A DNA stretch of 64,000 bases, taken from Arenibacter sp. P308M17 (GTDB lineage: Bacteria; Bacteroidota; Bacteroidia; Flavobacteriales; Flavobacteriaceae). Every line of letters starts with the position of its first letter. Position 1 is the stretch's first letter. This document shows positions 1,677 through 60,114 of the stretch, one piece after another. A program made the translations under genes and the position numbers. The notes under the pieces are model-generated. The model ran no database searches. It worked only from the letters and a program-made list of their open reading frames with translations, and was not told where the DNA came from. Location of the stretch: the NCBI RefSeq assembly GCF_003426735.1, contig NZ_QVON01000004.1:186001-250000 (forward strand), given 5' to 3'.

Positions 1677-1805
1677 CTATTTTTTGTTACCACTGTTCAT
1701 CAACATCAACACGGCGGTAACCAGACCAACACAAACAGCGCCAAAAACGGAAATCATTATAATCCCATTGCTCCAATTTACTAATGGTAAATATTGTAAT
1801 ATCAT
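1677..1805 (-). CDS. 42-aa single-pass membrane protein, unknown function
   Basis: Small open frame whose product has one strong hydrophobic segment (about residues 14-37, beginning at GIIMISVFGAVC) followed by a short basic tail NSGNKK. The frame stays open further upstream to 1895, but that extension would run into the MBL gene, so the ATG at 1805 is preferred. An FNR-like palindrome lies at 1862-1873, 57 bp upstream of this ATG, with a weak -7-like TATATTTT/TATTTTAG between them. This matches the promoter architecture of the nos and copper operons in this window. I do not recognise the family. Coding status rests on a typical small-membrane-protein composition and the upstream site. Confidence 0.5.
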   Translation of the reverse strand: MILQYLPLVNWSNGIIMISVFGAVCVGLVTAVLMLMNSGNKK

Positions 1806-46340: not shown

Positions 46341-46718
46341 TTATCCCAGTTCTGGTGGCTGTGCAATATCTGTGGTATAAAGACCGGGGATCAAAGTTTG
46401 GATTCCCTTATAATTATTTTGAACGGTACCATCGTATTCATTGGTCGACCCAAGAACTGGTAATAGGTAGAATGAAGAAATGTACTGAATTTCCAAATTG
46501 GAACGTTTACCCTCAAAAGGATTTTTGTCGCTTCCCTCCGATTCTTTGGCCAATTGTTTGGCCAAATAACATTTCCCATCGCAATGGAGGGAAGGAGTAT
46601 CCCTATTTTCGCAAAGGTTCTCTACGATATAGTCATAATTTATAGCATATTCAGCTATAGGCCAAAGTGGCTTTATCAGCATGATTATTGCAACAAATAG
46701 AACTACATGTTTCATCAT
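46341..46718 (-). CDS. Small CxGKC protein upstream of copper receptor
   Basis: 125-aa protein with an N-terminal hydrophobic segment (HVVLFVAIIMLIKPLWPI) as signal or anchor, then the motif HCDGKCYLAKQLAK (about residues 45-58), a conserved pair of cysteines seen in short flavobacterial proteins preceding metal-related TonB receptors. The C-terminus ends in PPELG. First gene of the copper operon; an FNR-like box and a TATATTTG -7 lie upstream. Function unknown; a metal-sensing or metal-handoff role is conjecture. Confidence 0.75.
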   Translation of the reverse strand: MMKHVVLFVAIIMLIKPLWPIAEYAINYDYIVENLCENRDTPSLHCDGKCYLAKQLAKESEGSDKNPFEGKRSNLEIQYISSFYLLPVLGSTNEYDGTVQNNYKGIQTLIPGLYTTDIAQPPELG

Positions 46719-46735
46719 TTATTTCTTATTGGGAA

Positions 46736-46779
46736 CAAATATAATACCGAATCAAAATATAAAAAGATGATATTTGTCA
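46736..46779 (-). promoter_or_regulatory. FNR-like box and -7 element of the copper operon
   Basis: On the minus strand the dyad TGACAAATATCA (plus-strand 46768-46779) is followed by a perfect TATATTTG (plus-strand 46736-46743). The dyad centre is 30.5 bp from the start of the -7 motif, i.e. near -41 from the expected transcription start, the class II activator position. Confidence 0.6.
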
Positions 46780-46857
46780 TGAACGTTAAATTGTTATGGC
46801 TATAGCTAAACTCTAAAAAATATTTTTAACGGTTAGGATCATTTTATTTAGGATAAT

Positions 46858-46889
46858 TTTGTCCGAAATAAAAATATGTATTATCTTTG
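46858..46889 (+). promoter_or_regulatory. Predicted promoter of the Rrf2 gene
   Basis: TTTG at 46858-46861, 20-bp spacer, and TATCTTTG at 46882-46889: a near-consensus Bacteroidota -33/-7 pair, 25 bp before the ATG at 46914. The FNR-like box at 46768 lies 80 bp upstream and could also act here. Confidence 0.65.
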
Positions 46890-46913
46890 TAAAGATTTTA
46901 ATAATGAATCAAT

Positions 46914-47348
46914 ATGTTTTCAAAGGCCTGCGAGTACGGAATTAAAGCTACCATATATATAGCCGTAAAATCTATGAGACAAGAGCGCGTAAGCCTTAAA
47001 GAGATAGCGGAAGAGGTAAATTCCCCTGTGGCATTTACCGCAAAAATATTGCAGTCCCTGGCCAAAAGCGGAATTATAGATTCCCATAAGGGCCCAACAG
47101 GTGGATTCCAGATCGAAGAAGCTAAAATAGACACTATTAAATTGCACGATATAGTGCACGCCATAGACGGTGATAAAATATTCGTGGGCTGTGGTCTGGG
47201 CCTGGAACAATGTGATGCCAATCAACCCTGTCCCGTTCATGATAAATTTGTGGGTATCAGGAACAATCTAAAGGTAATGTTGCAAAACACAAGCCTTTAT
47301 GAATTGGCCACAGGACTTGATATTGGTCTGACCCACTTAAAAAGATAA
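46914..47348 (+). CDS. Rrf2 family transcriptional regulator (IscR/NsrR-like)
   Basis: 144-aa winged-helix regulator. The N-terminus MFSKACEYGIKATIYIA and VNSPVAFTAKILQSLAKSGIIDS are the Rrf2 DNA-binding part. Three cysteines (93, 100, 106; CGLGLEQCDANQPC) are placed as in the Fe-S-binding loop of IscR and NsrR, though with C-x6-C-x5-C spacing instead of C-x5-C-x5-C. Being first in a run of NO-stress genes (RIC, hemerythrin, truncated haemoglobin) and next to the nos operon, an NO- or Fe-S-sensing role is likely. Confidence 0.85.
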   Translation: MFSKACEYGIKATIYIAVKSMRQERVSLKEIAEEVNSPVAFTAKILQSLAKSGIIDSHKGPTGGFQIEEAKIDTIKLHDIVHAIDGDKIFVGCGLGLEQCDANQPCPVHDKFVGIRNNLKVMLQNTSLYELATGLDIGLTHLKR

Positions 47349-47449
47349 AATTTTAAATTAATAAAAGATAAAAAGGTATTAAACTATTAAATAAGATGGA
47401 TCTCGAACAAACCATGTTATCCATAATATCATCAAATCCATAGCAATCC

Positions 47450-48412
47450 ATGTTAAACGTCATCAACAAGTTAACAGAAAAATACCAAGCCCTTGGGGAA
47501 AATCCCGACACCTACTTGGAGGGCCTACTTCACGCAAAGCCCATCACTTATTGGGATTATATTGAAGTAGAGACCTTGCTTTCCCTGCAAAGACCTCGGA
47601 CCAATTTTAAGGATGAGTCCATTTTTATCATGTACCACCAGGTAACCGAACTGTACCTGAAAATGATGCTGCATGAATTAGGGCAGATAGTGGATGAAAA
47701 AATACCTACCACCAGTTTTCTTATTAATAAAGTGGACCGACTTGTACATTACACCTCCATGCTGATCAGTTCATTTGATATTATGAAGGTAGGAATGGAC
47801 TATGAGGATTACAATACCTTTCGAAAAACCTTAACCCCTGCCAGCGGCTTTCAATCCGCTCAATTCCGTTTTATAGAATTACATTGTACCTCCCTGCTAA
47901 ACTTATTTAGCCATAGATTTAAAGAAGAACGCTCCAACGATCCGGATTTAAGGGAATGCTTTGAACATATATATTGGAAAGATGCCGGAACGGAACCCAA
48001 AACCGGCAGAAAAACTTTGACCCTTCAACTTTTTGAGGAAAAATACCTCTCTGCCTTGATGGAAACAGCCAAAAATGTAATGGGCCGTACCCTGGAAGAC
48101 AAGTTAGGCCTACTGCCCTATATCCCGGATGCACTTAGGAACCGACTTCGCACCTTCGACAGGCTATACAACATTGAATGGCCCATGGTCCATTTAAGCA
48201 CTGCCGAACACTATTTGGACAAAAAAGGGGAAAATAAACAGGCCACTGGGGGTTCGGATTGGAAAAAATACCTCCATCCAAAATATCAGCAACGCAAATT
48301 CTTTCCAAGTTTATGGACGGAAAGCGAAAAACAAAATTGGGGAAACAATCATAAAAACGAACATTATGGAAGTATTGAACAGACCACAATTGACACACCT
48401 ACAAGTAGGTGA
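47450..48412 (+). CDS. Tryptophan 2,3-dioxygenase family haem protein
   Basis: 320-aa protein of the TDO family, which oxidises tryptophan to N-formylkynurenine at a haem. Conserved parts are LLSLQRP, FIMYHQVTELYLKMMLHELGQI, LTPASGFQSAQFRFIE, and the C-terminal haem-ligand region WPMVHLSTAEHYL followed by ATGGSDWKKYL and KFFPSLW. The usual GTGGSSG loop is altered to ATGGSDW. No other kynurenine-pathway gene is adjacent. It lies directly between the Rrf2 regulator and the RIC gene, so an NO- or redox-linked function is worth considering. Its end overlaps the cupin gene by 47 bp. Confidence 0.85.
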   Translation: MLNVINKLTEKYQALGENPDTYLEGLLHAKPITYWDYIEVETLLSLQRPRTNFKDESIFIMYHQVTELYLKMMLHELGQIVDEKIPTTSFLINKVDRLVHYTSMLISSFDIMKVGMDYEDYNTFRKTLTPASGFQSAQFRFIELHCTSLLNLFSHRFKEERSNDPDLRECFEHIYWKDAGTEPKTGRKTLTLQLFEEKYLSALMETAKNVMGRTLEDKLGLLPYIPDALRNRLRTFDRLYNIEWPMVHLSTAEHYLDKKGENKQATGGSDWKKYLHPKYQQRKFFPSLWTESEKQNWGNNHKNEHYGSIEQTTIDTPTSR

Positions 48413-48662
48413 AAACCTAAAAATATTACAAATTGAGGCCTTGGCCAATAAGGGGATGCCAGAACACAACAGTTCCCATGAAGCGGTAATTGTTGTCCAA
48501 GAAGGTGAAGCCATACTCAAAACCAAGGATGTTACATATGTTTTAAAGAAAGGCACCACTATGGTGGTCCCGGCGGGCTTGAAGCATAGCCTTAGCGCAA
48601 TAAAGGATTTTAAAGCCGTTGCCATCATGGCAACGGATTCAATTATAAATTTTAAAAATTAA
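48366..48662 (+). CDS. Small cupin-domain protein
   Basis: 98-aa single-domain cupin. The first cupin motif is seen as MPEHNSSHEAVIVVQEGEAIL and the second as GTTMVVPAGLKHSLSAI, supplying His residues for a metal site. It starts 47 bp inside the TDO-family gene in a different frame, and RIC starts 6 bp after its end, so it is translationally packed into this operon. Role unknown. Confidence 0.82.
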   Translation: MEVLNRPQLTHLQVGENLKILQIEALANKGMPEHNSSHEAVIVVQEGEAILKTKDVTYVLKKGTTMVVPAGLKHSLSAIKDFKAVAIMATDSIINFKN

Positions 48663-48667
48663 TACCC

Positions 48668-49393
48668 ATGGAAAATTTAATGACCAAGAATATTGGCGAA
48701 ATAGTGGCAGAAAACTATCGTACGGCACAAGTATTCAAAAATCATAAAATAGATTTTTGTTGTAAGGGAAACCGGAGTATTGTAGAAGTAGCCGAAAAAA
48801 GTCAGCTGGATGCCAATCTCCTTTTAAAAGAAATTGAAACGGTACAGCATCAAACCAATGATGACAACATTGATTTTAAAACATGGCCCTTGGACCTATT
48901 GGCAGATTATATAGAGAAAAAGCATCATAGGTATGTTGAGGCACAAATACCTGTTCTAAATCAGTATCTGGCCAAACTATGCCGGGTCCATGGCGACCGG
49001 CACCCCGAGCTTTATGAAATTATGGAGCATTTCAATAAATGCGCAGGTGAACTGGCCATGCACATGAAAAAAGAGGAACTCATCGTCTTCCCCGCCGTAC
49101 GTAAAATGATTCAGAGCAAACAATACGGTAAAACCATGGAAAGACAACATTTTGGCACTATTCAAAACCCCATCCAAATGATGATGCAGGAACATGAGAA
49201 CGAAGGGGACCGATTTAGACTGATAGAGGAGTTGAGCAATAACTATAATCCACCTGCCGATGCCTGCAATACCTACAAGGTTACGTTTTCCCTACTACAA
49301 GAGTTTGAAGAGGATCTACATAGGCATATTCATTTGGAGAATAACATTCTCTTTCCAAAAGCAATAGCTCTGGAGAAGGAATTAAGTGCATGA
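48668..49393 (+). CDS. ric: Iron-sulfur cluster repair di-iron protein (RIC/ScdA/YtfE)
   Basis: 241-aa protein repairing Fe-S clusters damaged by NO or oxidants. The N-terminal ScdA_N domain has KNHKIDFCCKGN (Cys pair); the hemerythrin-like domain supplies His/Glu ligands (KKHHRYVE, HGDRHPE, HMKKEELIVFP, QEHENEGD, HRHIHLENNILFP). Full length. The NO link of this family supports the interpretation of the whole plus-strand run as nitrosative defence. Confidence 0.95.
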   Translation: MENLMTKNIGEIVAENYRTAQVFKNHKIDFCCKGNRSIVEVAEKSQLDANLLLKEIETVQHQTNDDNIDFKTWPLDLLADYIEKKHHRYVEAQIPVLNQYLAKLCRVHGDRHPELYEIMEHFNKCAGELAMHMKKEELIVFPAVRKMIQSKQYGKTMERQHFGTIQNPIQMMMQEHENEGDRFRLIEELSNNYNPPADACNTYKVTFSLLQEFEEDLHRHIHLENNILFPKAIALEKELSA

Positions 49394-49584
49394 TGGTTAC
49401 CTGAACAACCTATAAACCTTTTTCCAAACGACCAATTTTGTAAGCAATAAGGTGCGGCACAATACTTTAAAAAGTCTCCCCCCGCCGTGCCTCATTGGAT
49501 TACGAAGCACTTAACTATAAAATTTTAAAACACAAATGGAATGACCATTTAAAATTGGATTTAACCATACAAAAACAAGTTAAA

Positions 49585-50046
49585 ATGACAGTGACACCTA
49601 TAAAAAGACATAAGGCCATACAACCTTTGAGCCGGGAACACCATCAAGGTTTATTGCTATCATGGAAAATTAGGACCGGTCTCTCCAAAGGAGTATCTAC
49701 AGATCGGATAAAGACCTACGCAGATTGGTTTTACAGAACTTATTTGACCCCACATTTCGAAGAGGAGGAAAAACACCTCTTTCCCATTCTCGGAAACGAT
49801 AACGTCTTGGTAAAAAAGGCCATTGCACAACACCGGAGACTAGAACGCCTTTTTAAGAGCACTTCCGAATTGGAAAAATCCCTAAACCATATAGAGGAAG
49901 AATTGGAACAACATATCCGATTTGAGGAAAGGATACTGTTCAATGAAATTCAAAAAGTGGCCAACGAACAACAATTGCAATCCATTTTGGAACATCACAA
50001 GGAAACCAAATTTTTGGAAAGTACTACGGATTGGTTTTGGGAGTAA
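49585..50046 (+). CDS. Hemerythrin domain-containing protein
   Basis: 153-aa four-helix protein. Ligand-type residues are SREHHQGLL, TPHFEEEEKHLFP, AQHRRLERL and EQHIRFEERILF, the HHE pattern. The frame opens earlier at a TTG (49495), but the ATG at 49585 begins where the family begins. Possibly binds O2 or NO at a di-iron site. Follows ric by 191 bp and precedes the small membrane protein by 12 bp. Confidence 0.82.
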   Translation: MTVTPIKRHKAIQPLSREHHQGLLLSWKIRTGLSKGVSTDRIKTYADWFYRTYLTPHFEEEEKHLFPILGNDNVLVKKAIAQHRRLERLFKSTSELEKSLNHIEEELEQHIRFEERILFNEIQKVANEQQLQSILEHHKETKFLESTTDWFWE

Positions 50047-50058
50047 TACTAAAATACG

Positions 50059-50349
50059 ATGACTATGAGACTTTACGATCAGCTATTGAACGAATTTAAA
50101 AGGGAACAAACAGGATATTCCACCATTGCCATTATTGGCCAAAGTTGTATTGGATCTATTGCCGCCATGCTGGTCCTAATGAACCATATGCCTACAGCAA
50201 TCAAGTTGACCTTGCTTTTTCTGGTGACTATTTTATGCATGGCCTACAACGGCGCCGTTTTGGCCAGATTAACTGCCAAAACTACTTTTAACCTATTAGT
50301 TTTAAGCGTCCTTTTCAGTATCTTGACCATTGTAGGGATTCTTATTTAG
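50059..50349 (+). CDS. 96-aa three-helix membrane protein, unknown
   Basis: Hydrophobic protein with about three transmembrane segments (STIAIIGQSCIGSIAAMLVL, LTLLFLVTILCMAYNGAVLA, LLVLSVLFSILTIVGILI) after a short charged N-terminus. I do not recognise the family. Coding is supported by the tight packing: 12 bp after the hemerythrin gene and 6 bp before the ferredoxin gene. Confidence 0.72.
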   Translation: MTMRLYDQLLNEFKREQTGYSTIAIIGQSCIGSIAAMLVLMNHMPTAIKLTLLFLVTILCMAYNGAVLARLTAKTTFNLLVLSVLFSILTIVGILI

Positions 50350-50355
50350 AAATAA

Positions 50356-50697
50356 ATGAAGCCGGAACCCTACACTTTTACTTATATAGACGAATTTGGG
50401 GATACCAATTCCGCCATTTGTACGCAAAACGAATACCATAACCTCATGGAGCTTCTTTTTGACAAATACTCGCAGGAATGGGGAGATTGTAAGGGTAGGG
50501 CCTGGTGTGGAACATGTCATATACAAATTCTTGAAGGCTCTTTAGGGTCAAAAATGCAGCGCGATGAAAAACATACCTTGTCCCAACTGGACGATGCCTC
50601 CCCCCAAAGCAGATTGGCATGCCAAATTCCCATCAATGCCGAACTACATAATTTAGTTTTCAAAATAATAAACGAAAATGATTTTGGATTAAAATAG
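50356..50697 (+). CDS. [2Fe-2S] ferredoxin-like protein
   Basis: 113-aa electron carrier. Cluster cysteines 45, 51 and 54 (GDCKGRAWCGTCHI) and 89 (RLACQIP) give C-x5-C-x2-C...C, the adrenodoxin-type spacing rather than the plant type (C-x4-C-x2-C). Last gene of the packed run before the heptamer repeat. Possible electron donor to the hemerythrin/RIC or haemoglobin functions nearby (inference). Confidence 0.85.
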   Translation: MKPEPYTFTYIDEFGDTNSAICTQNEYHNLMELLFDKYSQEWGDCKGRAWCGTCHIQILEGSLGSKMQRDEKHTLSQLDDASPQSRLACQIPINAELHNLVFKIINENDFGLK

Positions 50698-50780
50698 GCC
50701 GGTTACAGGAAAGCAAAAAATGTTAGGGACGGCAAAGGCAGGGGCTTTTGAAACGGAATGGAATTCCTTGGCGGGGACTG

Positions 50781-50877
50781 AGCAATAACTGGGCAGTAAG
50801 CAGTAAGCAGTAATCAGTAAGCAAAAAACGGATTTCTATGCCCACTGCCTTTTGCCAACTGTGGACTGCCAAAGTTT
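50781..50877. repeat. Degenerate heptamer repeats facing each other
   Basis: Left part (50781-50822): AGCAATA, ACTGGGC, AGTAAGC twice, AGTAATC, AGTAAGC. Right part (about 50842-50869): CACTGCC, TTTTGCC, AACTGTG, GACTGCC, the inverted sense. Together they can fold as a hairpin. Related to the perfect array at 7640-7740. They occupy part of the 370-bp gap between ferredoxin and truncated haemoglobin genes, which otherwise shows nothing. Confidence 0.65.
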
Positions 50878-51067
50878 TTGGAAACTAATCCCGATGAGCA
50901 TAGGGAGCAGGGTTCTAATAAACCGTAAACAACAAAGTTGAAATAAATTATAACCTGCATGTGTGGGTTTGCACGATTGCCAATACCCTTATTGCATGGC
51001 CAATTAGTATAAAATTAAATTCAACGGACTACCTTTCCGGTATTCCCTGAGCAAACGGATTAAACTT

Positions 51068-51466
51068 ATGTTGATAAAATCGGAAATTAAGGAAAGAAAG
51101 GATGTGAACCTATTGGTGATTCGTTTTTATGCCAAGATCAGGGAGCACCAAATATTGGGGCCCATTTTTAATGGCATAATAAAAGACTGGGACAGTCACT
51201 TGGAGCTATTGACCGATTTTTGGGAGAGTCAATTACTCTTAAAACGAAAATATATAGGCAACCCCATTACCGTTCACCAGGAGGTGGACAAGAAAATGAA
51301 CCATAGTATTACCCCGGAACATTTTGGACTTTGGCTAAACGAATGGTTTGCCACAATAGATGAGCTTTTTGAAGGGGAAGTGGCCTGGATTGCAAAAAAT
51401 AGGGCCCAGAAAATGTCCACTATGTTATATATGAACATTTACCAACACAGGCAAAAAGGCCATTAG
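51068..51466 (+). CDS. Group III truncated haemoglobin
   Basis: 132-aa haem protein of the 2-on-2 globin family. Recognisable segments are RFYAKIREHQILGPIFNG, HLELLTDFWESQLL, and the proximal-His helix area NHSITPEHFGLWLNEWFATIDELF. Group III members are often linked to NO or microaerobic metabolism. Overlaps the convergent membrane-protein gene by 4 bp. Confidence 0.9.
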   Translation: MLIKSEIKERKDVNLLVIRFYAKIREHQILGPIFNGIIKDWDSHLELLTDFWESQLLLKRKYIGNPITVHQEVDKKMNHSITPEHFGLWLNEWFATIDELFEGEVAWIAKNRAQKMSTMLYMNIYQHRQKGH

Positions 51467-52680
51467 ACCCTTCGCTTTGCACTTTTGCCCATGGATTGTC
51501 TAAGCATCACTAGTATAGCGATAGGAATCAAAATACTGCCAAGGGCCAGGTATTTGGAATAATCTTCGAACAAGGGCCATCCCAACCATGCGGCCATCCC
51601 TCTAAAGAAAATAAGGGCTTCCGTGAGCAGAAAACCGATCAAATACAGGGTTATGGCCATTTTGGACAGTTTCATCAATCCAAAAAATTGGAGAAAGAAA
51701 AATAACCCTAGGCTAATGACCCCCAAAAAGGTCCAATGTAAATAGCCAATAGTAAAATCCAAAACCGTAGCTGCCAAGTTTGCAAAGAAGGGCCAGGCGG
51801 TGAGCCATTGCAAAATCATTTTAATTAGTAAAAGTAAAGCCACCAATTTCAAAATATTGAACTGAGGCCGGGACAGTCCAGATTTCAATGCAGCCTTATT
51901 TTCCAGGAATATCCTTATCAGAATCCCAAAGCCCATCAATTGCAATAAAGCCCCCAGGCCTCCCAAAAAATAGTATATGGGTTCTGGAGCCGTCCACAGG
52001 GTCGACAGAAAAAAACTCAGAATAATTCCCAGGACCGTAGTCCGAAAAAAATAACTAAATATCTTGTCGGAAACATTGGCTCCAAGTTGTTCCAACAGGT
52101 AAAAAAAGAGTCCCAACAGTGCCAAAATCATCCAACCGTTATACTGAAAATGCAAATAGAAATAGATTGCCAACCGGTACCATATGGATTCAGGTCCCAA
52201 AACCGTCATTATGGCCCCTAAAGCCCAAGGACCTATACTGGAGCCTATCATGAACCAGAGGGCATATTTTAAACAGCTATAGGCCTTTGTACCTTTGAAG
52301 GATTGCGGCGCGTATTTTAAAAAAAAAGCGGAAAACCAATAGGAGGCCAACAGGAAAAGAGTGGAAAATAGAATGGAAAACAAGGCATACCCCTGAAAGG
52401 GAAAGGATAACAACATGCCTATTAAACAGATTTGGGTAAACCAAAAAATTTGACGATACTTCCTCTCCACCGCCTGCTTGTCCAAAAAAAGATGGTACAA
52501 CAAAGTGGTCAACGCAATGTACACCCAGCCCAAAAGGGCTATATGGGAATGGGTATGCACAAAAAACCGGTAATTGATGGGTATTGGGGCAATTACAAAA
52601 GTCCGCAATACAACACCAAGCAGGGCGGCCAATAAAAAATAGCCCAAGGATACTTTAATATGGGATTTGGTAACTATCAC
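51463..52680 (-). CDS. Haem-copper oxidase subunit I-like membrane protein, GTG start
   Basis: 405-aa protein with about 12 transmembrane segments. Histidines that resemble haem ligands of NorB/CcoN-type subunits are FFVHTHSHIALLGWVYIA (helix 2), YFYLHFQYNGW and IGYLHWTFLG. The full set for a catalytic centre (six His in the usual positions) is not apparent, so it may be a haem protein without oxidase or NO-reductase activity, or an NnrS-like protein. It follows nosY by 31 bp and appears to end the nos operon. Family assignment is tentative. Confidence 0.65.
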   Translation of the reverse strand: MIVTKSHIKVSLGYFLLAALLGVVLRTFVIAPIPINYRFFVHTHSHIALLGWVYIALTTLLYHLFLDKQAVERKYRQIFWFTQICLIGMLLSFPFQGYALFSILFSTLFLLASYWFSAFFLKYAPQSFKGTKAYSCLKYALWFMIGSSIGPWALGAIMTVLGPESIWYRLAIYFYLHFQYNGWMILALLGLFFYLLEQLGANVSDKIFSYFFRTTVLGIILSFFLSTLWTAPEPIYYFLGGLGALLQLMGFGILIRIFLENKAALKSGLSRPQFNILKLVALLLLIKMILQWLTAWPFFANLAATVLDFTIGYLHWTFLGVISLGLFFFLQFFGLMKLSKMAITLYLIGFLLTEALIFFRGMAAWLGWPLFEDYSKYLALGSILIPIAILVMLRQSMGKSAKRRV

Positions 52681-52711
52681 GCAATGATATGTAATTCAGC
52701 TAAAGGTACTA

Positions 52712-53494
52712 TTAAAAATCCTTTCTTTTGGAAACATAGCCTAAACGCCAAATGGGGATGATGGTCCAAAGGAACAGCATAAAAATGGACATAAACAGTC
52801 CCAAATTAGTCCCAAAAAACTGCTTAAAAATAGCGCCTGTATACCCCAAAAGAGCCGAAATATCCAGTTTTAACAAAATTAAGGTCCTGGAAAGGTCTAT
52901 GGGATTAAACATCGTGGCGATCAAGGAAAGGTTATCCAAGGGGTAATCCTCAAAAACGATCAATGACATTAGAAATAATCCGTCATAAATTACTGCCAAA
53001 AACAACCAGGCCAGGACGGCATATCCAAAACCTTTTATCTTATTCTCGTTGGCCAAGGCTATATTAAAGGCAACAGCAGTAAAGATCAGCGTTAAAAATG
53101 CTCCCGTTATCAATAATAGTGAAAAATCCCATATGGCATTACTTTGGAACAATCCATATAAGATAAAGGGAATGCCCAGGCCCAATACCAAGCTAACCGT
53201 CAACGAACCGGCAACTCCGAAATATTGGCCCAAAAAAATGGACGATCTTTTAATGGGCTGTGCCAAAAGTAGTTCTGTAAATTCCTTGGAATTGTAGTAA
53301 TACATTACACCAAAAATAATCCCGATCAAGGGTACCAGAACAATAATAACGTTCATTAAGGTAATAACGGCCTTGGAGAGCTCATTGTTCAAAAACAACA
53401 ATACAAAGCCCAACAACAGATAGAACAGAAAATAAACGTAACTCCAACGGCTACGCATTAGATCGTAGAAACTATACTTTAATATCTTAATCAT
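52712..53494 (-). CDS. nosY: NosY-like ABC-2 permease
   Basis: 260-aa, six-helix permease of the NosDFY system required for NosZ maturation. It starts MIKILKYSFYDLMRSRWSYVYF; the sequence has the typical YYNSKEFTELLLAQPIKRS cytoplasmic loop. The ATG at 53494 overlaps nosF by 8 bp, the normal arrangement; a longer frame to 53533 adds a non-conserved leader. Confidence 0.92.
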   Translation of the reverse strand: MIKILKYSFYDLMRSRWSYVYFLFYLLLGFVLLFLNNELSKAVITLMNVIIVLVPLIGIIFGVMYYYNSKEFTELLLAQPIKRSSIFLGQYFGVAGSLTVSLVLGLGIPFILYGLFQSNAIWDFSLLLITGAFLTLIFTAVAFNIALANENKIKGFGYAVLAWLFLAVIYDGLFLMSLIVFEDYPLDNLSLIATMFNPIDLSRTLILLKLDISALLGYTGAIFKQFFGTNLGLFMSIFMLFLWTIIPIWRLGYVSKRKDF

Positions 53495-54197
53495 GATTGT
53501 TGTGGGTTGATATAGCCGCAATGGCATGTTCAAAATTGCTTTGTCCGGTTTTGGTCTTTAATTCCTCAATACTGCCCTTAAAGTAAATTTTACCTTCAAG
53601 TAGGTAGACGATCTGGTCGGAAACCTCTTCTACAAACTGCATAATATGGGAGGTTATCAAAAAGGTCTTCCCTTTTGCCTTTTCTTCAAAAATAAGTTCC
53701 TTTAGACGGATCAGCGCCAAGGGATCCAGACCATTGGTGGGTTCGTCCAAAATTATCAAGGGACTGTTGAACATAAAGGCCAGTACAATATTTACCTTTT
53801 GCTTGGTTCCCCCGGAAAGGTTGCTCAATTTTTTATCTAAAAAAGACTCCAATCCAAATAGGCCTATCAACTTAAGTTCGTCGCTCGGTTTTTGCCTAAT
53901 ATCCTTTATCATGGCTATTAATTCCTTGACCTTGAGGTTTCCCGGGAAATTGGCAATTTGGGGAAGGTAATTTATGTCTTGGCGATACTTCCATTTATCT
54001 CGAACAGATGAATCCATTACGGATATGGTTCCTTTATTGGGAAGTACCATCCCCAGCACTGTTTTTATCAAAGTTGTTTTACCGGAACCATTGGGTCCCA
54101 GGACAGCAAAAATTCCGCCTTGGTCAATATGGAGTTCCAACTCGGCCAATACCACATTTTTACCAAACTTCTTATGTAGGTTTTCAACCTGTATCAT
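53487..54197 (-). CDS. nosF: NosF-like ABC ATP-binding protein
   Basis: 236-aa ATPase. Walker A GPNGSGKTT, signature LSGGTKQKV, Walker B LIILDEPTNGLDP and the switch His in ITSHIM are intact. Overlaps nosD by 4 bp and nosY by 8 bp. Works with NosD/NosY in delivery of sulfur or copper species to the NosZ CuZ site. Confidence 0.94.
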   Translation of the reverse strand: MIQVENLHKKFGKNVVLAELELHIDQGGIFAVLGPNGSGKTTLIKTVLGMVLPNKGTISVMDSSVRDKWKYRQDINYLPQIANFPGNLKVKELIAMIKDIRQKPSDELKLIGLFGLESFLDKKLSNLSGGTKQKVNIVLAFMFNSPLIILDEPTNGLDPLALIRLKELIFEEKAKGKTFLITSHIMQFVEEVSDQIVYLLEGKIYFKGSIEELKTKTGQSNFEHAIAAISTHNNHD

Positions 54198-55432
54198 TTA
54201 ATTTTTTTCATTAAGGGTTTTGCATCAACTAATTCGTCCAGGGTAAAAACTGGGGACACTTTTTCTGAAAAATCGATAATGTCCATAAATAGACTGCGTA
54301 ACAGAATAATAGTTTCGGGGGTTCTGTTTACGATATAGGAAAATAATTTTACCGGTCTGTAGGGGATATCGCCAGTGCCGTTCCTATCCAGATCGTAACC
54401 TGTATAGCCACTCCAATAATTTTCCTCAAAAATATTGTCGTTCAAATTGCTGTTGTAGGCCAGATCAAAGGAATTGTACATAAAATTATTATGGATAAAA
54501 GTATTGGTATAACAGGCTCCACGAACCTTTATGGCCCATCCATTTCTAATAAAATTATTTTTTGAATAAATTATCCGATTGGAGCCTTCAATACTGATAC
54601 CCACAGTATTATCTTCAAAGGTATTGCCCGTAAGCTCCGCATCATTGATCTCTTTCAACAACACCCCAAAGGAAGTGGTGCCCCAATTTTTTTTAAAGGT
54701 ATTGCCCAGCATTTTTATCCTTTTGGAAAACATGACCGCTACCCCTGCCCCATTATTCTCAAAGGTATTGTCCTTATAAATGTCATCATTGGAGAACATA
54801 AAGTGCAGCCCGTAGCGAAGGTTGTCCGAACTAATATTGTTCTCTATGGTAATATTGTCCGAGAATTCCAAGTAGATACCATCCCTTACATGTTGAACAA
54901 TATTGCGCTCCACAACTATATTCTGTGAGTACCATAATTGAATGCCGTTCCCCGAATTGTATTCATCCACGGCATCGCCTATGATTTTATTGTGGTAGAC
55001 CTTTCCGTTCTTGCTTTTCTCCAAATAGATTCCAAAAAACAGCTTTTCCAGCACTACGTTCTGTATTAAAAAGTTTTCGCTCTGCACCACCCTGATAGCG
55101 GCATAATCGGCCGTATAACTAGTGCCCACGTTTATGATGAAAAGACCGTCTATAGTAACATTGTTCGAAACTATGGTCATGATCTCCCCCTTATCTTCGC
55201 CATCGATCACGGGATAGTTCTCCCCAATAATGGTCAAGGGTTTGGTTACTTGAATATTAAATTCCCTATAGGTTCCTTTTTTGATCAAGATTGTGTCAAA
55301 ATCGGCTGCCACGGCTATCCCCTTCTTGATGGATTTCACCTCACAGGAATTACAGACCGTGATGGTCCCTGCCCATAAATGATTCCCAAAAAGACATATT
55401 AAAAACCAGAAAATTATTTTTATCCTGCCCAT
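54194..55432 (-). CDS. nosD: NosD periplasmic copper/maturation protein
   Basis: 412-aa right-handed beta-helix protein with signal peptide (IIFWFLICLFGNHLWAG). Repeated Asn-containing turns (e.g. NNVTIDGLFI, NITIENNISSDN, GNTFEDNTVGI) and the C-terminal NYWSGYTGYDLDRNGTGD motif are typical of NosD. Partner of NosFY. Confidence 0.94.
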   Translation of the reverse strand: MGRIKIIFWFLICLFGNHLWAGTITVCNSCEVKSIKKGIAVAADFDTILIKKGTYREFNIQVTKPLTIIGENYPVIDGEDKGEIMTIVSNNVTIDGLFIINVGTSYTADYAAIRVVQSENFLIQNVVLEKLFFGIYLEKSKNGKVYHNKIIGDAVDEYNSGNGIQLWYSQNIVVERNIVQHVRDGIYLEFSDNITIENNISSDNLRYGLHFMFSNDDIYKDNTFENNGAGVAVMFSKRIKMLGNTFKKNWGTTSFGVLLKEINDAELTGNTFEDNTVGISIEGSNRIIYSKNNFIRNGWAIKVRGACYTNTFIHNNFMYNSFDLAYNSNLNDNIFEENYWSGYTGYDLDRNGTGDIPYRPVKLFSYIVNRTPETIILLRSLFMDIIDFSEKVSPVFTLDELVDAKPLMKKIK

Positions 55433-55448
55433 TTTCTTAAGGGGATTT

Positions 55449-55883
55449 CTATTGTTTAAACCTTAGTTTCAATTGCTCCCAGGTAAAGAGATCCCCCCCA
55501 TTCGTCATTAAGGCATCCACTGCTTCCTGCTCCGTCTTAAAGGCCGTTAAAAATTCCCCCATGGGACTGGGAATACGCTCGCTGATCATATAGATTGCCT
55601 CTTTGGCATCTATCAATTTCCCTGGTTGATTGTAGTCGTTCACCAAATAAAGGGCAATCTGATTCCGGTCTATCTCCTTAAGATGATTCATCATGCATTC
55701 ACTGGAATCAAACTTAAAGACCTTGCCTTTATCCGTAACAATTTCAGCGGCATGTTGCCGATCCACAATGGTCATACTACAAAAATGACATCCATCGGAC
55801 CCATAGGCAATAGGTTTAGGGCCAACACTGCAGGACGTTGCCAACAATAAAAACAAAAACACTACTATTCTATAGTTCGCCAT
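55449..55883 (-). CDS. nosL: NosL copper chaperone lipoprotein
   Basis: 144-aa lipoprotein (LLLATSCSVG). Copper-site motif DGCHFCSMTI and SSECMMNHL are visible, then a conserved AKEAIYMISERIPSPMGEFLTAF stretch (cited only in part; about residues 96-118). Supplies Cu(I) to NosZ assembly. Confidence 0.93.
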   Translation of the reverse strand: MANYRIVVFLFLLLATSCSVGPKPIAYGSDGCHFCSMTIVDRQHAAEIVTDKGKVFKFDSSECMMNHLKEIDRNQIALYLVNDYNQPGKLIDAKEAIYMISERIPSPMGEFLTAFKTEQEAVDALMTNGGDLFTWEQLKLRFKQ

Positions 55884-55892
55884 ATCTTAAAA

Positions 55893-56537
55893 TTATGTAG
55901 TGGCCGGTTTTTTGGATGGCCGGTTTGCGCTTAATCCCGTGCTCTTCCATCCCATAGAGAATGCTACCAATGTAAGTGACATTCCAATAAACATCATGTA
56001 GGCACCGGTACTGGGAAGGGAGGTTACATCAAAATTCAACATTTTTTGGTATCCCAACAGGGGTGGTTTATAGGTCATAGGGGTTCCATCCTCATTGACA
56101 ACCTTGATAATGGCATGTGGATCTAGGTTGGAACCATAATCGGTAAGCCATTCATTAAAGTCGTACATGCCCAAAATTCCTAAAACGGACATGAGAACAA
56201 ACCAGCCCAAGAACCATTTAAAATCTACTTTTCCCAAGAATCCCAATAGTCCTATAAGTACTCCAAGTACCACCATTCCTATAATAACTTTGGGAAAAAC
56301 ATCAAATTCCCACATTTCCCCAGATTTGGGTATGGTCTTCATACCAATATAGTGATTTAATCCGTCTATATTCTGAAGATCAAATTCCGAGACTCCCTCT
56401 ATTCCAGAAATATGGATATTCATGCCCAATGGTTCTGGATATTGAGGTGCTCCCAGCATAATGTTCCATAGGGGAAAGGCAAACAGTCCCAAAAGAAGTA
56501 ATGGACCAACGATCATTAGTATACTTGCGTTTTTCAT
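55893..56537 (-). CDS. Nos-cluster membrane protein, unknown
   Basis: 214-aa protein with four hydrophobic segments: near the N-terminus (ILMIVGPLLLLGLFAFPLW), VIIGMVVLGVLIGLLGFLG, WFLGWFVLMSVLGILGM, and near the C-terminus (YMMFIGMSLTLVAFSMGW). Between the first two is a periplasmic-type loop with NIDGLNHYIGMKTIP, seen in other Bacteroidota proteins next to nosL. Position between nosZ and nosL (10 bp from nosL) suggests a role in NosZ maturation or electron supply. A mobile element starts 22 bp upstream of its ATG. Confidence 0.82.
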   Translation of the reverse strand: MKNASILMIVGPLLLLGLFAFPLWNIMLGAPQYPEPLGMNIHISGIEGVSEFDLQNIDGLNHYIGMKTIPKSGEMWEFDVFPKVIIGMVVLGVLIGLLGFLGKVDFKWFLGWFVLMSVLGILGMYDFNEWLTDYGSNLDPHAIIKVVNEDGTPMTYKPPLLGYQKMLNFDVTSLPSTGAYMMFIGMSLTLVAFSMGWKSTGLSANRPSKKPATT

Positions 56538-56558
56538 TTCCTATTGTCATTTTATTAT

Positions 56559-56720
56559 TGAACTCATCTTAACTTTTTCTATTACCTGTAAAATCATCAT
56601 TTTGCATCCTAATTTTGTCTTTTTCTCTCACCGTAGCGCTGCTATGCTGCTCCAAAAAGGCTTCATTAGGATACAAAGGCATAACTTTTTGGTTGAAAAC
56701 AAAAAGTCAAGATGAGTTCA
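56559..56720. mobile_element. 162-bp palindromic MITE-like element, family B copy 2
   Basis: Imperfect inverted-repeat ends (TGAACTCATCTTAACTTTTT; right end reads TGAACTCATCTTGACTTTTT on the other strand). The core CCGTAGCGCTGCTATGCTGC is the counterpart of the core in 36575-36737. It lies within the nos operon, between the nosZ terminator and the membrane-protein gene, and probably separates their transcription. Confidence 0.65.
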
Positions 56721-56770
56721 TTTACAAATCGAACAATGTTCTGGATGGTCGTCCCTTTCTTCAACTTGTT

Positions 56771-56809
56771 AAAAAAGCGGGCAGTTTCTTAAACCAGACC
56801 CGCTTTTTA
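56771..56809 (-). terminator. Terminator directly after nosZ
   Basis: AAAAAGCGGG / CCCGCTTTTT with an internal loop, 26 bp after the nosZ stop. It may reduce read-through to the maturation genes. Confidence 0.75.
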
Positions 56810-56834
56810 TGCTAAAAACCAATAATAAGTAGCC

Positions 56835-58796
56835 TTAATCGCCTAGGGACCAGGAAAGTTCCAAATTGGAATTTGCCGGTGATACCCTAACATAGCCCTG
56901 CATCTCTTGGTGAAGCGCGGAACAGAAATCGGTACAATAGAACGGCCATACCCCAACTTGCTTGGGCTCCCAAACAATGGTCTTGGTCTGACCCGGCATT
57001 ACCAACAATTCCGAAGTGTTGGCTCCTATTATGGCAAAACCGTGCGGTACATCAAAATCCTGCTCTTGGTTCGTTATATGAAAATATACTTTGTCTCCCA
57101 CCTTGACTCCTTCAATATTATCCGGTGTAAAATGGCTTCGGATGGTTGACATATAAACGTGTACATCCTTACCTTCACGCACTACTTTGGAATCGGCCGC
57201 CCCTAAGGTGGCGTAAGGGTGCTTGTTATCTGCCAGTTTATAAAACTTTTTAGATTTGGGAGCTAAAAGTTCAGCTGGGATTCCTGCCGCGTAATGTGGC
57301 TCGCCATGGGTGGGGAAATCATAAAGAAGTTCCATTTTTTCGCCAGAGATATCATAAATCTGAGCCGAGTGTTCCATCTCCGGCCCAACTGGCAAATATC
57401 TATCCTTGGTAATCTTATTAAGCGCCACTACGTACTTACCAAAAGGCTTTCTTGAATTTCCACCTGGAATCATCAAGTGACCTACAGAGTAATAGGTAGG
57501 TTTTCTATCGATCACCTCCCATGTCCCTAGTTTCCATTTTACAACTTCGGAAGAAATAAAGAATGTGGTATATGCATTCCCTTCAGCATCAAACTCGGTA
57601 TGCAATGGTCCAAGACCCCCACTTTTTACGGTTCCGGCCAGCACATCCTCAAATTTAAGGATGGGAATGCCATAGGCCTCCCCATCAAACTTTTTATCCT
57701 CAATGGCAGCAATCATATTATCAAAGGAATGTACCGTTAGGTCCGCAGATAATTTACCATTACCAATGATATATTGTCCAGAAGGATCTACGTCACAACC
57801 GTGGGGCGATTTTGGAGTTGGCAAAAAGAATACGGCACCGGGTACATCTAAGGGGTTTACGGTAAGAACTTCCTTTTTCATGGTACTTGTTGCGGTATGC
57901 GTAGACTCATCATATACATTATGTGCATAGTTGGCGGGCATTTTTGTTCCTCCACCGTTGTTAACATACGCTTCAATTTTTTTCCAGTTTATGGCGGCAA
58001 TAAAATCCTTATCGTTCTGGGAAGAATTCACTTCTTGCAAGGTACTGGCCTCTTCGGTATTATACGTAGTAAAGAAGAACCAACCATGGGATTTACCACG
58101 TCCAGGATGCGAAAGATCATAATTAAACCCGGGCATTATGATCTGGAATTTAATATCCATACTACCGTGTTCCGGCTCAACACTAATGAAAGACAAAGCT
58201 CCTTGAAAGTTTCCTTTATATTCGTTTATGGGGATATCACGCTGTGGAATAGGCACTGAAAAACGCGTTCCGGCCACCACATACTCAGAATTCTCAGTAA
58301 CAAAGGATGAACTGTGGTTACCGGCACTATTGGGTACCTCAATGATTTCTTCTGTTTCAAAGGTAGTGAGGCTTATCCTTGCAATCCTCGGTGTGTTATT
58401 CCCATTTATAAAGATCCATCTTCCATCCAATTCACCATTGGTCTGACTAATATCAGGGTGATGGGCGTCATCCCATGGCACAAACCCGTGAGAGGTATTT
58501 AACATAGGCTTTGTTTCTTCAGAATAGCCGTAGCCCGAGGTGGCAAATTGTGAGAATACGGGAATTTCCTTGAACATACGTCCGGAAGGCAAGCCGTAGA
58601 CGGTTAGGTTGCCACTATATCCCCCGGAAAAAAAGGCGTAAAACTCGTCATGTTCCCCAGGGGCCACATAAACTTTTTCGGCATTGCTCGAATTTAATGC
58701 TCCTGAAGAACTTTTGCCCTGATTCCCGTTACCGCAACCGGTCAATAAGGCGGCAAAGCCCAAGAGTCCCAATACTAAATAGGTATGCTTTTTCAT
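56835..58796 (-). CDS. nosZ: Clade II, Sec-type nitrous oxide reductase
   Basis: 653-aa multicopper enzyme reducing N2O to N2. The N-terminus is a Sec/lipoprotein signal (FAALLTGCGNGN, Cys21) with no twin-Arg motif, a clade II trait. The beta-propeller supplies CuZ histidines (e.g. DDAHHPD, DLSHPGRGKSHGW, PKSPHGCDV, GPLHTEFD, GEPHYA). The C-terminal cupredoxin holds the CuA site: VPHGFAI and FYCTDFCSALHQEMQGY, with two Cys, His and Met ligands. All expected residues appear present. Downstream genes encode its maturation system. Confidence 0.97.
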   Translation of the reverse strand: MKKHTYLVLGLLGFAALLTGCGNGNQGKSSSGALNSSNAEKVYVAPGEHDEFYAFFSGGYSGNLTVYGLPSGRMFKEIPVFSQFATSGYGYSEETKPMLNTSHGFVPWDDAHHPDISQTNGELDGRWIFINGNNTPRIARISLTTFETEEIIEVPNSAGNHSSSFVTENSEYVVAGTRFSVPIPQRDIPINEYKGNFQGALSFISVEPEHGSMDIKFQIIMPGFNYDLSHPGRGKSHGWFFFTTYNTEEASTLQEVNSSQNDKDFIAAINWKKIEAYVNNGGGTKMPANYAHNVYDESTHTATSTMKKEVLTVNPLDVPGAVFFLPTPKSPHGCDVDPSGQYIIGNGKLSADLTVHSFDNMIAAIEDKKFDGEAYGIPILKFEDVLAGTVKSGGLGPLHTEFDAEGNAYTTFFISSEVVKWKLGTWEVIDRKPTYYSVGHLMIPGGNSRKPFGKYVVALNKITKDRYLPVGPEMEHSAQIYDISGEKMELLYDFPTHGEPHYAAGIPAELLAPKSKKFYKLADNKHPYATLGAADSKVVREGKDVHVYMSTIRSHFTPDNIEGVKVGDKVYFHITNQEQDFDVPHGFAIIGANTSELLVMPGQTKTIVWEPKQVGVWPFYCTDFCSALHQEMQGYVRVSPANSNLELSWSLGD

Positions 58797-58830
58797 TGTT
58801 TTTGATTTAATTGATTATTGAGTTCTATAA

Positions 58831-59412
58831 TTATTCTGTTGGGGGCAATATTACCTTGTCTACCACATGTACTATTCCATTGCCCGCAGGTACACTGGCT
58901 AAAATTTTGGCGCCCCCTACAAAAACATCGTCCCCAACTACCTCAACGGCAACGTTCTGATCATTGGCCTGCCCCAATTTTTTAAACTTCATTAAAAATT
59001 CCTTGCTGTAATTGCCGGCGGTAACATGATATTTTAGAATATTGGCCAAAGCATCTTTGTTCTCCGGTTTTAAAAGATCTTCCACTGTGCCTGCAGGCAA
59101 GGCCGCAAACGCTTCATTGGTGGGCGCAAATACCATCAAGGGACCTGCATTTACCAGGGCGTTTTCCAATTCCGCGGCCTGCACCGCTGCCACCAAGGTG
59201 GAATGGTCTGGGGAACCCATAGCAATCTGCAGAACATTGGGGGTGGAACCATCATCGGCGATAAAGGCCTGGCCCTGCTGCTCAACTTCCTTTGTTACGG
59301 CTTTACCATTAGTAGGGGCCGTTGCCGTCTTTGGTTCGTTTTTACAACTGAACAAAACGCCCAGCATCAGAAACGATACTATCAATGTTTTTAAATTGGT
59401 TGTCGGGAACAT
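58831..59412 (-). CDS. Fasciclin (FAS1) domain lipoprotein
   Basis: 193-aa lipoprotein (LGVLFSCKNE) with a single FAS1 domain (about residues 55-190): VQAAELENAL, GPLMVFAPTNEAFAAL, ANILKYHVTAG and GIVHVVDKVILP. FAS1 proteins of this size recur in Bacteroidota nos operons; a role is not known. It lies 34 bp upstream of nosZ on the same strand. Confidence 0.88.
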   Translation of the reverse strand: MFPTTNLKTLIVSFLMLGVLFSCKNEPKTATAPTNGKAVTKEVEQQGQAFIADDGSTPNVLQIAMGSPDHSTLVAAVQAAELENALVNAGPLMVFAPTNEAFAALPAGTVEDLLKPENKDALANILKYHVTAGNYSKEFLMKFKKLGQANDQNVAVEVVGDDVFVGGAKILASVPAGNGIVHVVDKVILPPTE

Positions 59413-59430
59413 AATGCTATGTATTTTTGG

Positions 59431-59937
59431 TTATAAGGTTCTAAAGAATTCCAATACTGCCCGGGCCTCTTCTTCGGTCAGACTTTGATTGGCCATGGGT
59501 GCGCCGTTAAATTCCGCTAATAGAGCTTTGGCCAAAGGATCCTCCTTTACCATGACCTCAGGGTTCAATATCATATTCATGACCCATTCCGGACTACGTC
59601 TTTCCAATATGCCTTTTGGGGCTGGCCCTATAAATTTTTTATCTACCCTATGGCAGGCCAAACACATTTGATTATACACTTCCTCTCCCTTTTTGGCCAT
59701 TTCCTGGTCCACCTCGGCGGTCAAACTTACTGAGGTAATGGGCCCCACTCCCTTGTTGGTCAAATCGATGGTTTCAGAGGGTTTTGTATCCGAGGTGGTA
59801 GGTGCCGGTGATGCTTGTTCCGTTGTGGTTTTTGCCCTGTCCACACTAAAACCTTCTTTTTTCTTTTCTTCCTTACCACCACAGCCCATCATCAAAACAG
59901 AAAAAAGAACTGCGCTACTTTTTAAAATTATTTTCAT
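59431..59937 (-). CDS. Monohaem cytochrome c lipoprotein of nos operon
   Basis: 168-aa lipoprotein (LMMGCGGKE) with an acidic/charged linker and a C-terminal class I cytochrome c domain: MCLACHRVDKKFIGPAPKGI (haem at CLACH) and a later Met (about EVMVKEDP region) as candidate axial ligand. Probable electron donor to NosZ. The ATG at 59937 begins the signal; the frame open to 60030 adds a non-signal leader. First gene of the nos operon, preceded by a strong promoter architecture. Confidence 0.88.
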   Translation of the reverse strand: MKIILKSSAVLFSVLMMGCGGKEEKKKEGFSVDRAKTTTEQASPAPTTSDTKPSETIDLTNKGVGPITSVSLTAEVDQEMAKKGEEVYNQMCLACHRVDKKFIGPAPKGILERRSPEWVMNMILNPEVMVKEDPLAKALLAEFNGAPMANQSLTEEEARAVLEFFRTL

Positions 59938-60040
59938 ATATAAATATTTATTGTTTTTAATGGTCGTTTTTATTGGTTTTGAACCTTGGTCATAAGTATG
60001 ATTTTCTGCATAGCTTGTAATTTTTAACAATTTATTGGGA

Positions 60041-60083
60041 CAAAATTAGCCTTGGATAGAAACAAAAAATATGATAAAAATCA
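60041..60083 (-). promoter_or_regulatory. FNR-like box and -7 element of the nos operon
   Basis: On the minus strand the dyad TGATTTTTATCA (plus-strand 60072-60083; the symmetry extends to AATATGAT/ATCATATT) is followed by a perfect TAATTTTG (plus-strand 60041-60048). The dyad centre is 29.5 bp from the -7 motif, almost identical to the copper operon. The start codon of the first gene is about 100 bp further on. Confidence 0.65.
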
Positions 60084-60088
60084 TATTA

Positions 60089-60114
60089 AAGGATAAAAAC
60101 ATCTTTTTATCCTT
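60089..60114. promoter_or_regulatory. Second perfect inverted repeat upstream of nos
   Basis: AAGGATAAAAA and its exact complement, 11 bp each, 4-nt spacer. It adjoins the FNR-like box. It may be a further operator or a terminator. The remainder of the 526-bp gap to 60463 contains additional GATAAAA motifs (e.g. near 60130 and 60175) and no convincing gene. Confidence 0.45.

Follow-up and report, generated by a model that had tools for sequence, protein, structure and literature searches.

The stretch of the Arenibacter sp. P308M17 genome analysed here (64,000 nucleotides, referred to as the window) carries two operons on its minus strand, one encoding the nitrous-oxide (N2O) reductase NosZ (the nos operon) and one encoding an OprC/NosA-like TonB-dependent receptor for the predicted uptake of copper (the copper operon). 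Both are preceded by the same promoter layout, an Fnr-type dyad placed at a set distance from a -7 element of the sequence TAnnTTTG. We consider it likely that the two operons are members of the low-oxygen regulon of an Fnr-type activator.

A spaced motif pair before the nos and copper operons

The initial annotation had described a dyad and a -7 element in front of each operon on the minus strand, and both motif pairs were found exactly where it had placed them (Table 1). The dyad type it had given, TGAT-N4-(A/G)TCA, describes the nos site but not the copper-operon site, which reads TGAC-N4-ATCA on the minus strand (5' to 3'), and TGAY-N4-RTCA was therefore used as the working consensus. Between the end of the dyad and the -7 element lie 23 bp in the nos promoter and 24 bp in that of the copper operon. 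In E. coli, FNR and CRP act as class II activators from a position of -41.5. The fixed bases of the Flavobacterium johnsoniae -7 element are T-12, A-11, T-8, T-7, T-6 and G-5 (PMC6847099), and in this register the two gaps put the computed dyad centres at -41.5 for nos and -42.5 for the copper operon. The computed centres agree with the expectation that these dyads, which are palindromes with TGA half-sites, lie close to the class II position.

Each fixed-gap pattern (gap 23 and gap 24) matched once within the window. When the whole window, intergenic and coding DNA together, was shuffled 100 times with dinucleotides preserved, the mean number of matches was 0.00 for gap 23 and 0.01 for gap 24, so the pair is not as frequent in shuffled DNA. 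A scan of the genome had been proposed in the initial annotation; the 5.04 Mb sequence was scanned with the pattern TGAYN4RTCA-N{8,38}-TAnnTTTG, and the reversed pattern served as the control. There were 29 matches over gaps of 8-38 (15 on one strand and 14 on the other) versus 4 for the control (2 + 2). Fifteen of the matches were at gap 23 and four at gap 24, with ten spread over the remaining 29 gaps; taking these ten as background, the Poisson probability is about 6e-20 at gap 23 and about 4e-4 at gap 24. With one mismatch permitted at gap 23, the genome contained 53 matches versus 6 for the reversed pattern. The spacing peak and the low reversed-pattern counts argue for a promoter class rather than a coincidence of two sites. 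Gap-23 matches were found in 84 of 198 genomes of the phylum. Within that sample, all 19 genomes of the same family had such sites (175 versus 4 in the control), and 28 genomes from other families of the class had 91 versus 7. In a set of 40 relatives, 24 of the 25 same-family genomes carried them.

Conservation at nos was assessed in the best 80 of 374 nosZ relatives from named genomes, many of them Flavobacteriaceae. The motif pair was present upstream of nosZ in 77 of the 80, at gap 23 in 76 and at gap 24 in one (L109), although these loci are related (10 are from Arenibacter and many others from Allomuricauda/Flagellimonas) and therefore do not represent 77 independent events. The pair was strict at 72 loci (71 at gap 23), and five more, all at gap 23, had one mismatch in the -7 element. 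The three loci without the pair (L053, L107 and L113) are on truncated contigs, with only 6, 623 and 1110 bases of upstream DNA. The bases of the spacer between dyad and -7 element vary widely among genera. Among eight extra nosZ stretches from other relatives, seven had the site before the nos row or a combined copper-nos row.

At the copper operon, the dyad was kept in 16/16 same-genus loci; 13 of them have a strict -7 element at gap 24, and the other three (L128, L135 and L137) have one with a single mismatch. In the alignment of these promoters, cut around the dyad, the clearest runs of invariant columns were the dyad and the -7 element. Seven more distant receptor loci were available; two (L140 and L142) had a gap-23 pair within 1500 bases and five had none, but in one of the five genomes (G022) a longer stretch (L197) revealed a strict site ahead of the complete copper module, a little outside the stretch scanned at first. 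Hence, the class II layout described for both operons is conserved at both, and the observation of the motif pair is confirmed and stronger than the two sites from which it started.

Table 1. Promoter elements and genes of the nos and copper operons, with positions in the window
Feature	Position	Strand	Remarks
Fnr-type dyad TGATTTTTATCA, nos operon	60072..60083	-	Centre at predicted -41.5; counterpart in 77/80 relatives
-7 element TAATTTTG, nos operon	60041..60048	-	Predicted +1 near 60036; register from PMC6847099
Second palindrome AGATGTTTTTATCC, nos promoter	60091..60104	-	Two mismatches to GGAYA-N4-TRTCC; weak candidate Rrf2 site
Fnr-type dyad TGACAAATATCA, copper operon	46768..46779	-	Centre at predicted -42.5; 16/16 same-genus genomes
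-7 element TATATTTG, copper operon	46736..46743	-	Predicted +1 near 46731
Palindrome GGATAATTTTGTCC / GGACAAAATTATCC, rrf2-copper intergenic region	46851..46864	.	Candidate Rrf2 autoregulatory operator
Cytochrome c lipoprotein, nos operon gene 1	59431..59937	-	
Fasciclin-domain lipoprotein, nos operon	58831..59412	-	
NosZ, Sec-dependent nitrous-oxide reductase	56835..58796	-	TIGR04246, 932.6 bits (cut-off 625)
Membrane-like protein of 214 residues, nos operon	55893..56537	-	No family match
NosL	55449..55883	-	Profile search
NosD	54194..55432	-	Profile search
ABC ATPase, NosF by position	53487..54197	-	Profile search
ABC-2 membrane protein, NosY by position	52712..53533	-	20.8 bits, below Pfam cut-off of 25
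Small CDGKC protein, copper operon gene 1	46341..46718	-	No family match
OprC/NosA-like TonB-dependent receptor with CxxxM and HxM	44195..46258	-	
Met/His-containing lipoprotein, copper module	43318..44181	-	No family match
Rrf2-family regulator, C-x6-C-x5-C-x2-H	46914..47348	+	Divergent from copper operon

Regulon content and candidate regulator

The 19 sites at gap 23 or 24 in the genome lie before genes of several kinds. Besides the nos operon, the copper operon and an fnr-like gene, they precede nirK, hemN and the gene of a B12-dependent ribonucleotide reductase (RNR), each above its NCBIfam cut-off, as well as genes for a Usp protein, a pyridoxamine-oxidase-like protein, a YtxH-like protein, a PAS sensor kinase, a patatin, a protein with a glycogen-binding module and two HYC_CC_PP proteins. 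The genes at L017 and L005 were judged Usp-like by eye, the latter having no NCBIfam match, and those at L013 and L024 had no family match in profile searches. At L029 there is no clear gene on the strand of the site, and the same dyad faces an imperfect -7 element towards the opposite strand. A single dyad lying between fnr and the gene of a heavy-metal P-type ATPase is flanked on either side by a -7 element at gap 23; the one on the ATPase side carries one mismatch, and the ATPase scores below the cut-offs of the copper models. FNR-type regulons of Proteobacteria include hemN, denitrification genes and alternative RNR genes, and we take the gene content found here to resemble that of a low-oxygen regulon. 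Judged by these genes, the promoter code marks a wider, low-oxygen-like regulon and not a private link between nos and copper. The initial annotation was thus right that both operons carry one code, but the code also stands before nirK, hemN, the B12-dependent RNR gene and others.

The two HYC_CC_PP genes (L154, 7893-8470 on the minus strand and 15177-15721 on the plus strand) each have their Fnr site at gap 23, and the second is divergent from a siderophore-like TonB receptor that scores below its model's cut-off. Another stretch (G000:C12:783000-827000, L149-L151) is dense in Fnr sites and contains several usp-like genes, PAS kinases, genes resembling pta, ackA and ppsA by eye and two REC-Crp-like genes. 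It resembles a dormancy or hypoxia island.

The genome has six PF13545 matches, five of them above the cut-off. The candidate activator is a 229-residue Fnr-type protein encoded outside the window (G000:C1:764809). It has a Crp-type helix-turn-helix (PF13545, 55.8 bits) and is homologous to FNR, with an E value of 8.3e-22 to the PDB structures 5cvr/5e44; its best chain was 2gau, another Crp/Fnr protein (E 6.8e-26). The fnr gene carries its own dyad site, and in L045 and L069 an fnr gene lies less than 10 kb from nosZ. Cysteines were compared in the best 30 Fnr matches from 40 genomes, against the E. coli FNR sequence; the same columns were obtained in the alignment of the genome's Fnr with the PDB FNR. 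In 29 of the 30, cysteines match FNR C20, C23 and C122, and a fourth one stands where FNR has A70; the exception is L186 (G028), which lacks the four. Weaker matches exist in G024, G032 and G038. Each of the 29 genomes with a four-cysteine Fnr contains 4-24 gap-23 sites, and the 11 genomes without it contain none (seven genomes), one (two genomes), six (G028) or ten (G024). A structure prediction of Fnr (L069 with L045) gave a mean predicted local distance difference test score of 59.6, low over the beta-roll and too poor for cysteine geometry. A search of viral contigs found no Fnr relatives.

The predicted copper receptor and its association with nosZ

The best PDB match of the receptor was OprC (E 3.8e-13, residues 70-324 of 687). 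The CxxxM of OprC aligns with GACTDKMDP of the receptor and its HxM with HVM, which gives the window protein the CxxxM-HxM copper site of OprC/NosA; the HxM alignment refers to the window protein only. Forty genomes, our own included, were searched for the receptor and 23 had a match, one receptor per genome, all with CxxxM; a weak second match in G007 (L145) was excluded from the counts. Receptors with 33% identity or more occurred in 19 of the 25 genomes with nosZ versus none of the 15 without it (Fisher P 1.4e-6), a limit that was chosen after viewing the list; with all matches, the counts were 22/25 versus 1/15. Sixteen of the 19 genomes belong to one genus, and counted by genus the same comparison was 4/8 versus 0/15 (P 0.008). 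Six nosZ genomes lack a receptor at this limit: G008, G011 and G024 have none, and G018, G023 and G025 have a distant one.

Gene order also connected the two functions. In G030, a single row headed by one strict site holds the genes for the small protein, the lipoprotein, the receptor and a cytochrome c and then nosZ. In G022, the copper module and nosZ form two rows, each with a gap-23 site, and the receptor is about 8 kb from nosZ. In G026, the copper module adjoins nosZ, with an Rrf2 gene in between. The two operons of the window may therefore represent a single functional unit in divided form, with the same promoter on each half. This linkage and the constant CxxxM support the earlier assignment of the copper operon as a predicted uptake system tied to N2O reductase. 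G025 also contained a distant NosZ-like protein (37%) beside a second NosZ-like stretch that was matched in two pieces (G025:C136:1869-5987).

A second palindrome at nos, the proposed mechanism and its alternatives

Most nos promoters contain a second palindrome, GGAYA-N4-TRTCC, starting 20 nt upstream of the dyad and centred at -60.5. In 77 nos promoters (76 relatives and the window; L075 was excluded for its short upstream sequence), this palindrome was perfect in 14, had at most one mismatch in 49 and at most two in 62. At other offsets the average with at most two mismatches was 0.04, and the maximum was 4, at +32. In the window, AGATGTTTTTATCC starts 21 nt upstream of the nos dyad, inside a 26-bp inverted repeat (60089-60114); a further match, with one mismatch, lies at +32, where it overlaps the -7 element. 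L061 and L105 have a perfect copy between dyad and -7 element.

The palindrome also occurs before genes of Rrf2-family regulators. The Rrf2 protein divergent from the copper operon (PF02082, 91.8 bits) scores below the IscR and NsrR model cut-offs, and its C-x6-C-x5-C-x2-H motif, which resembles the ligand set of IscR, was found in 82 of 84 tblastn hits. Upstream DNA was scored for 79 of these hits, five being dropped since their upstream sequence was too short. Fifty-six of the 79 genes lie at most 250 bp from a nos dyad. Among the 21 that are more than 3 kb from nosZ, the palindrome was present with at most one mismatch before 20 and with at most two before all 21, always 58-61 bp ahead of the start, versus 3-10% of control 200-bp stretches with at most one mismatch. 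From these positions, the second nos palindrome is probably bound by the Rrf2 regulator. Among the 19 Fnr promoters of the genome, nos is the only one that matches the palindrome near -20 with two mismatches or fewer (the next, L026, has three). All 16 same-genus copper promoters have at least three mismatches at the nos-like place; a perfect copy was found about 85 bp upstream, before rrf2, in 5 of the 16. The promoters described initially as sharing one code are thus alike in the Fnr layout, but the second palindrome of most nos promoters is missing at that place in the copper promoters. The combined Rrf2-Fnr pattern was found in 17 of 40 genomes, in 15 of them at nos (25 genomes have nosZ), with one match for the reversed control; of the others, one lies before nadA-nadB-like genes (G004) and one, apparently by chance, in a genome without nosZ. 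The strict combined pattern is absent from the window's own genome.

A genome-wide role of GGAYAWWWWTRTCC was at first dropped, with 11 matches versus 11 for the reversed pattern, and palindromes of this type were reconsidered because they stand at a constant position in nos promoters and ahead of Rrf2 genes. One of the 11 is the rrf2-copper site; of five others inspected, four lie inside open reading frames (ORFs) of at least 70 residues and one between them. In G004, the combined pattern before the nadA/nadB-like genes (L203, about 3196-3258 on the minus strand; genes assigned by eye) suggests that NAD synthesis is controlled by the same Rrf2-Fnr pair. The window's rrf2 gene heads a row on the plus strand (46914-50697) that continues with genes for a short tryptophan-dioxygenase-like protein, a cupin-like protein (by eye), RIC/ScdA, a hemerythrin and a ferredoxin, and this row is likely a nitric oxide (NO) or iron-sulphur (Fe-S) stress cluster.

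We propose that the candidate Fnr would bind TGAY-N4-RTCA centred at -41.5 or -42.5 and, from this class II position, would activate the Bacteroidetes-type RNA polymerase at promoters that have TAnnTTTG as their -7 element. On a fall in oxygen, Fnr would switch on N2O reductase, copper nitrite reductase, other functions and the OprC/NosA-like copper importer, and since one activator would serve the copper enzymes and the importer, copper supply would rise with the copper enzymes. The Rrf2 Fe-S regulator at about -60.5 of nos promoters would add a second input. We infer from sequence the binding by Fnr, the signal, activation over repression, copper as the substrate and Rrf2 as the palindrome binder. 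More tentatively, and with somewhat less than even confidence, we suggest that a variant Fnr at -41.5 and the Rrf2 Fe-S regulator at about -60.5 decide jointly at the tandem nos promoter and that copper import follows Fnr only; the ligands of the variant cluster would be the CxxC cysteines, the Cys in V[YF]C and the C122 counterpart, in place of C29. The initial annotation had proposed that one NO- or oxygen-responsive Crp/Fnr protein couples copper import to N2O respiration. This is partly supported, in that the layout, the linkage and a candidate were found, but not in its specificity.

Sec-dependent (clade II) nosZ genes are numerous in flavobacteria. The analysis provides a probable activator, its site and position, a second candidate operator and 19 strict-match promoters in one genome, so that the control of N2O removal in a marine bacterium and its relatives is now open to direct testing. 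A further prediction is that copper supply would increase along with N2O reduction, a point relevant to the timing of N2O-sink activity. If the variant cysteine set holds a cluster, it would be another way of building an Fnr sensor.

Several observations weigh against this proposal, as does the kinship of the nos loci noted above. The candidate Fnr scores 102.2 bits with the NCBIfam Fnr model NF008365 (cut-off 228), and the counterpart of C29, and hence the full C20/C23/C29/C122 set, is absent from the 29 four-cysteine proteins. G026 (L195) has no strict site at its copper module or adjoining nosZ. Because of this genome and the Fnr model score, our confidence was lowered slightly. G028 has six sites and a best Fnr match without the cysteines, and G024 has nosZ, a nos site and ten sites, its best Fnr match being of only 26% identity (E 1.7e-21) in a 352-residue frame, an indication that such sites can also serve another Crp-type protein. 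Many of the site-free genomes are small, so the association between Fnr and the sites is confounded, and the relatives are not independent. Same-family G021 had no gap-23 sites in the scan of 40 relatives. On the copper side, the receptor scores 129.4 bits with the TonB-copper model TIGR01778 (cut-off 472.45), same-genus G008 and G011 have nosZ and no receptor match, and G036 has a distant receptor (23%) and no nosZ. The recognition helix ATExxIR is common to three Crp/Fnr proteins of the genome, the 229-residue Fnr and two larger ones of 363 and 354 residues that look like REC-Crp fusions (the REC part by eye). In an anammox-community study, a Flavobacteriales CRP/FNR homologue was assigned to carbon sensing (PMC8510549); it may be another paralogue.

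The alternatives differ in which step of the proposal they replace. Both halves of the motif pair are short and AT-rich, as expected if the pair were a chance or base-composition artefact of AT-rich promoters, but the shuffling, reversed-pattern and spacing controls are all contrary to this and the pair is kept at 77/80 nos loci, so that chance is refuted at the level of sequence statistics and has a very small probability. A separate question is whether the initially assumed single Crp/Fnr protein lies behind both operons: a candidate Fe-S Fnr was found, but three proteins share the helix and G024 lacks a close match. The main activator could instead be one of the two REC-Crp-like proteins, or several Crp/Fnr proteins could share the sites, with the signal arriving through a sensor kinase. 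Both larger proteins carry ATExxIR and are encoded in the site-rich stretch with the PAS sensor kinases, and G024 has its ten sites without a close four-cysteine match, its best match being the 352-residue frame; on the other hand, every one of the 29 genomes with a four-cysteine Fnr has at least four sites, the fnr gene has its own site, and an fnr gene lies within 10 kb of nosZ in L045 and L069. We regard this alternative as quite unlikely.

The Rrf2 gene beside the copper operon, next to RIC/ScdA and hemerythrin genes, the 56 of 79 Rrf2 genes close to a nos dyad and the palindrome near -60.5 in most nos promoters would also agree with a coupling driven mainly by NO, through Rrf2 or an NO-sensing Crp/Fnr protein of the DNR/NnrR type, with low oxygen being secondary. 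However, the Fnr-type code also covers hemN and the B12-dependent RNR gene, which to our knowledge have no special NO role, nos alone among the 19 promoters has the palindrome near -20 with at most two mismatches, and the candidate Fnr has four conserved cysteines; we regard an NO-driven coupling as distinctly improbable. The copper operon could also be just one of many low-oxygen operons, its receptor serving NirK and cbb3 oxidase generally. The regulon includes nirK as well as, through a single imperfect site, a heavy-metal P-type ATPase similar to copper types; OprC occurs in non-denitrifiers, and one nosA knockout showed no difference in NosZ (PMC8610252). The restriction of receptors of at least 33% identity to nosZ genomes (19/25 versus 0/15) and the receptor's place in the nosZ row (G030), adjoining it (G026) or about 8 kb away (G022) argue for the tie to N2O reductase, and we consider the general role possible but unlikely.

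Compared with known systems, the arrangement corresponds to an Fnr class II regulon whose candidate sensor has a variant set of cysteines and whose nos promoters carry a probable site for a second Fe-S regulator. Like the class II promoters of E. coli and A. fischeri FNR, FnrL and ANR, it combines a candidate Crp-type activator with a dyad at -41.5, but it differs in the TAnnTTTG -7 element. The proteobacterial FNR site is TTGAT-N4-ATCAA, whereas the nos sites in the relatives are mostly ATGAY-N4-RTCAT. The candidate shares the counterparts of C20, C23 and C122 with FNR and differs in lacking C29, in the conserved Cys at the A70 position and in its score below the NCBIfam cut-off. The window receptor is like OprC/NosA in CxxxM (23/23) and HxM (window protein) but differs in falling below the TIGR01778 cut-off and in being part of a three-gene module. 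The Rrf2 domain is shared with the Fe-S regulators IscR and NsrR, from which the present case differs in that the candidate operator, GGAYA-N4-TRTCC, forms a tandem with an Fnr site in nos promoters. Anaerobic expression of OprC/NosA has been published (PMC8610252). In Brucella, an FNR-family regulator (NnrR/DNR, nosA) was predicted to control an outer-membrane copper receptor (Rodionov 2005, PMC1274295), so the idea of copper coupling is not new; NnrR/DNR-nosA regulons differ in phylum, promoter type and a distant receptor, and here the sensor candidate has four cysteines. Rrf2 and Crp/Fnr genes were noted on nosZ scaffolds of sediment metagenomes in a 2018 paper, which describes the information on nos regulation outside Proteobacteria as limited (PMC6264515). 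Among the best-ranked open-licence literature, compared by titles and abstract starts, there was no match for a flavobacterial Fnr regulon at this spacing or for an Rrf2-Fnr tandem at nos.

Elsewhere in the window, at 1831-1873 on the minus strand, an Fnr-type dyad TGATATTTATCA stands at gap 23 from an imperfect -7 element TATTTTAG. The ORF behind it (1677-1805, minus strand) encodes 42 residues and appears membrane-like by eye.

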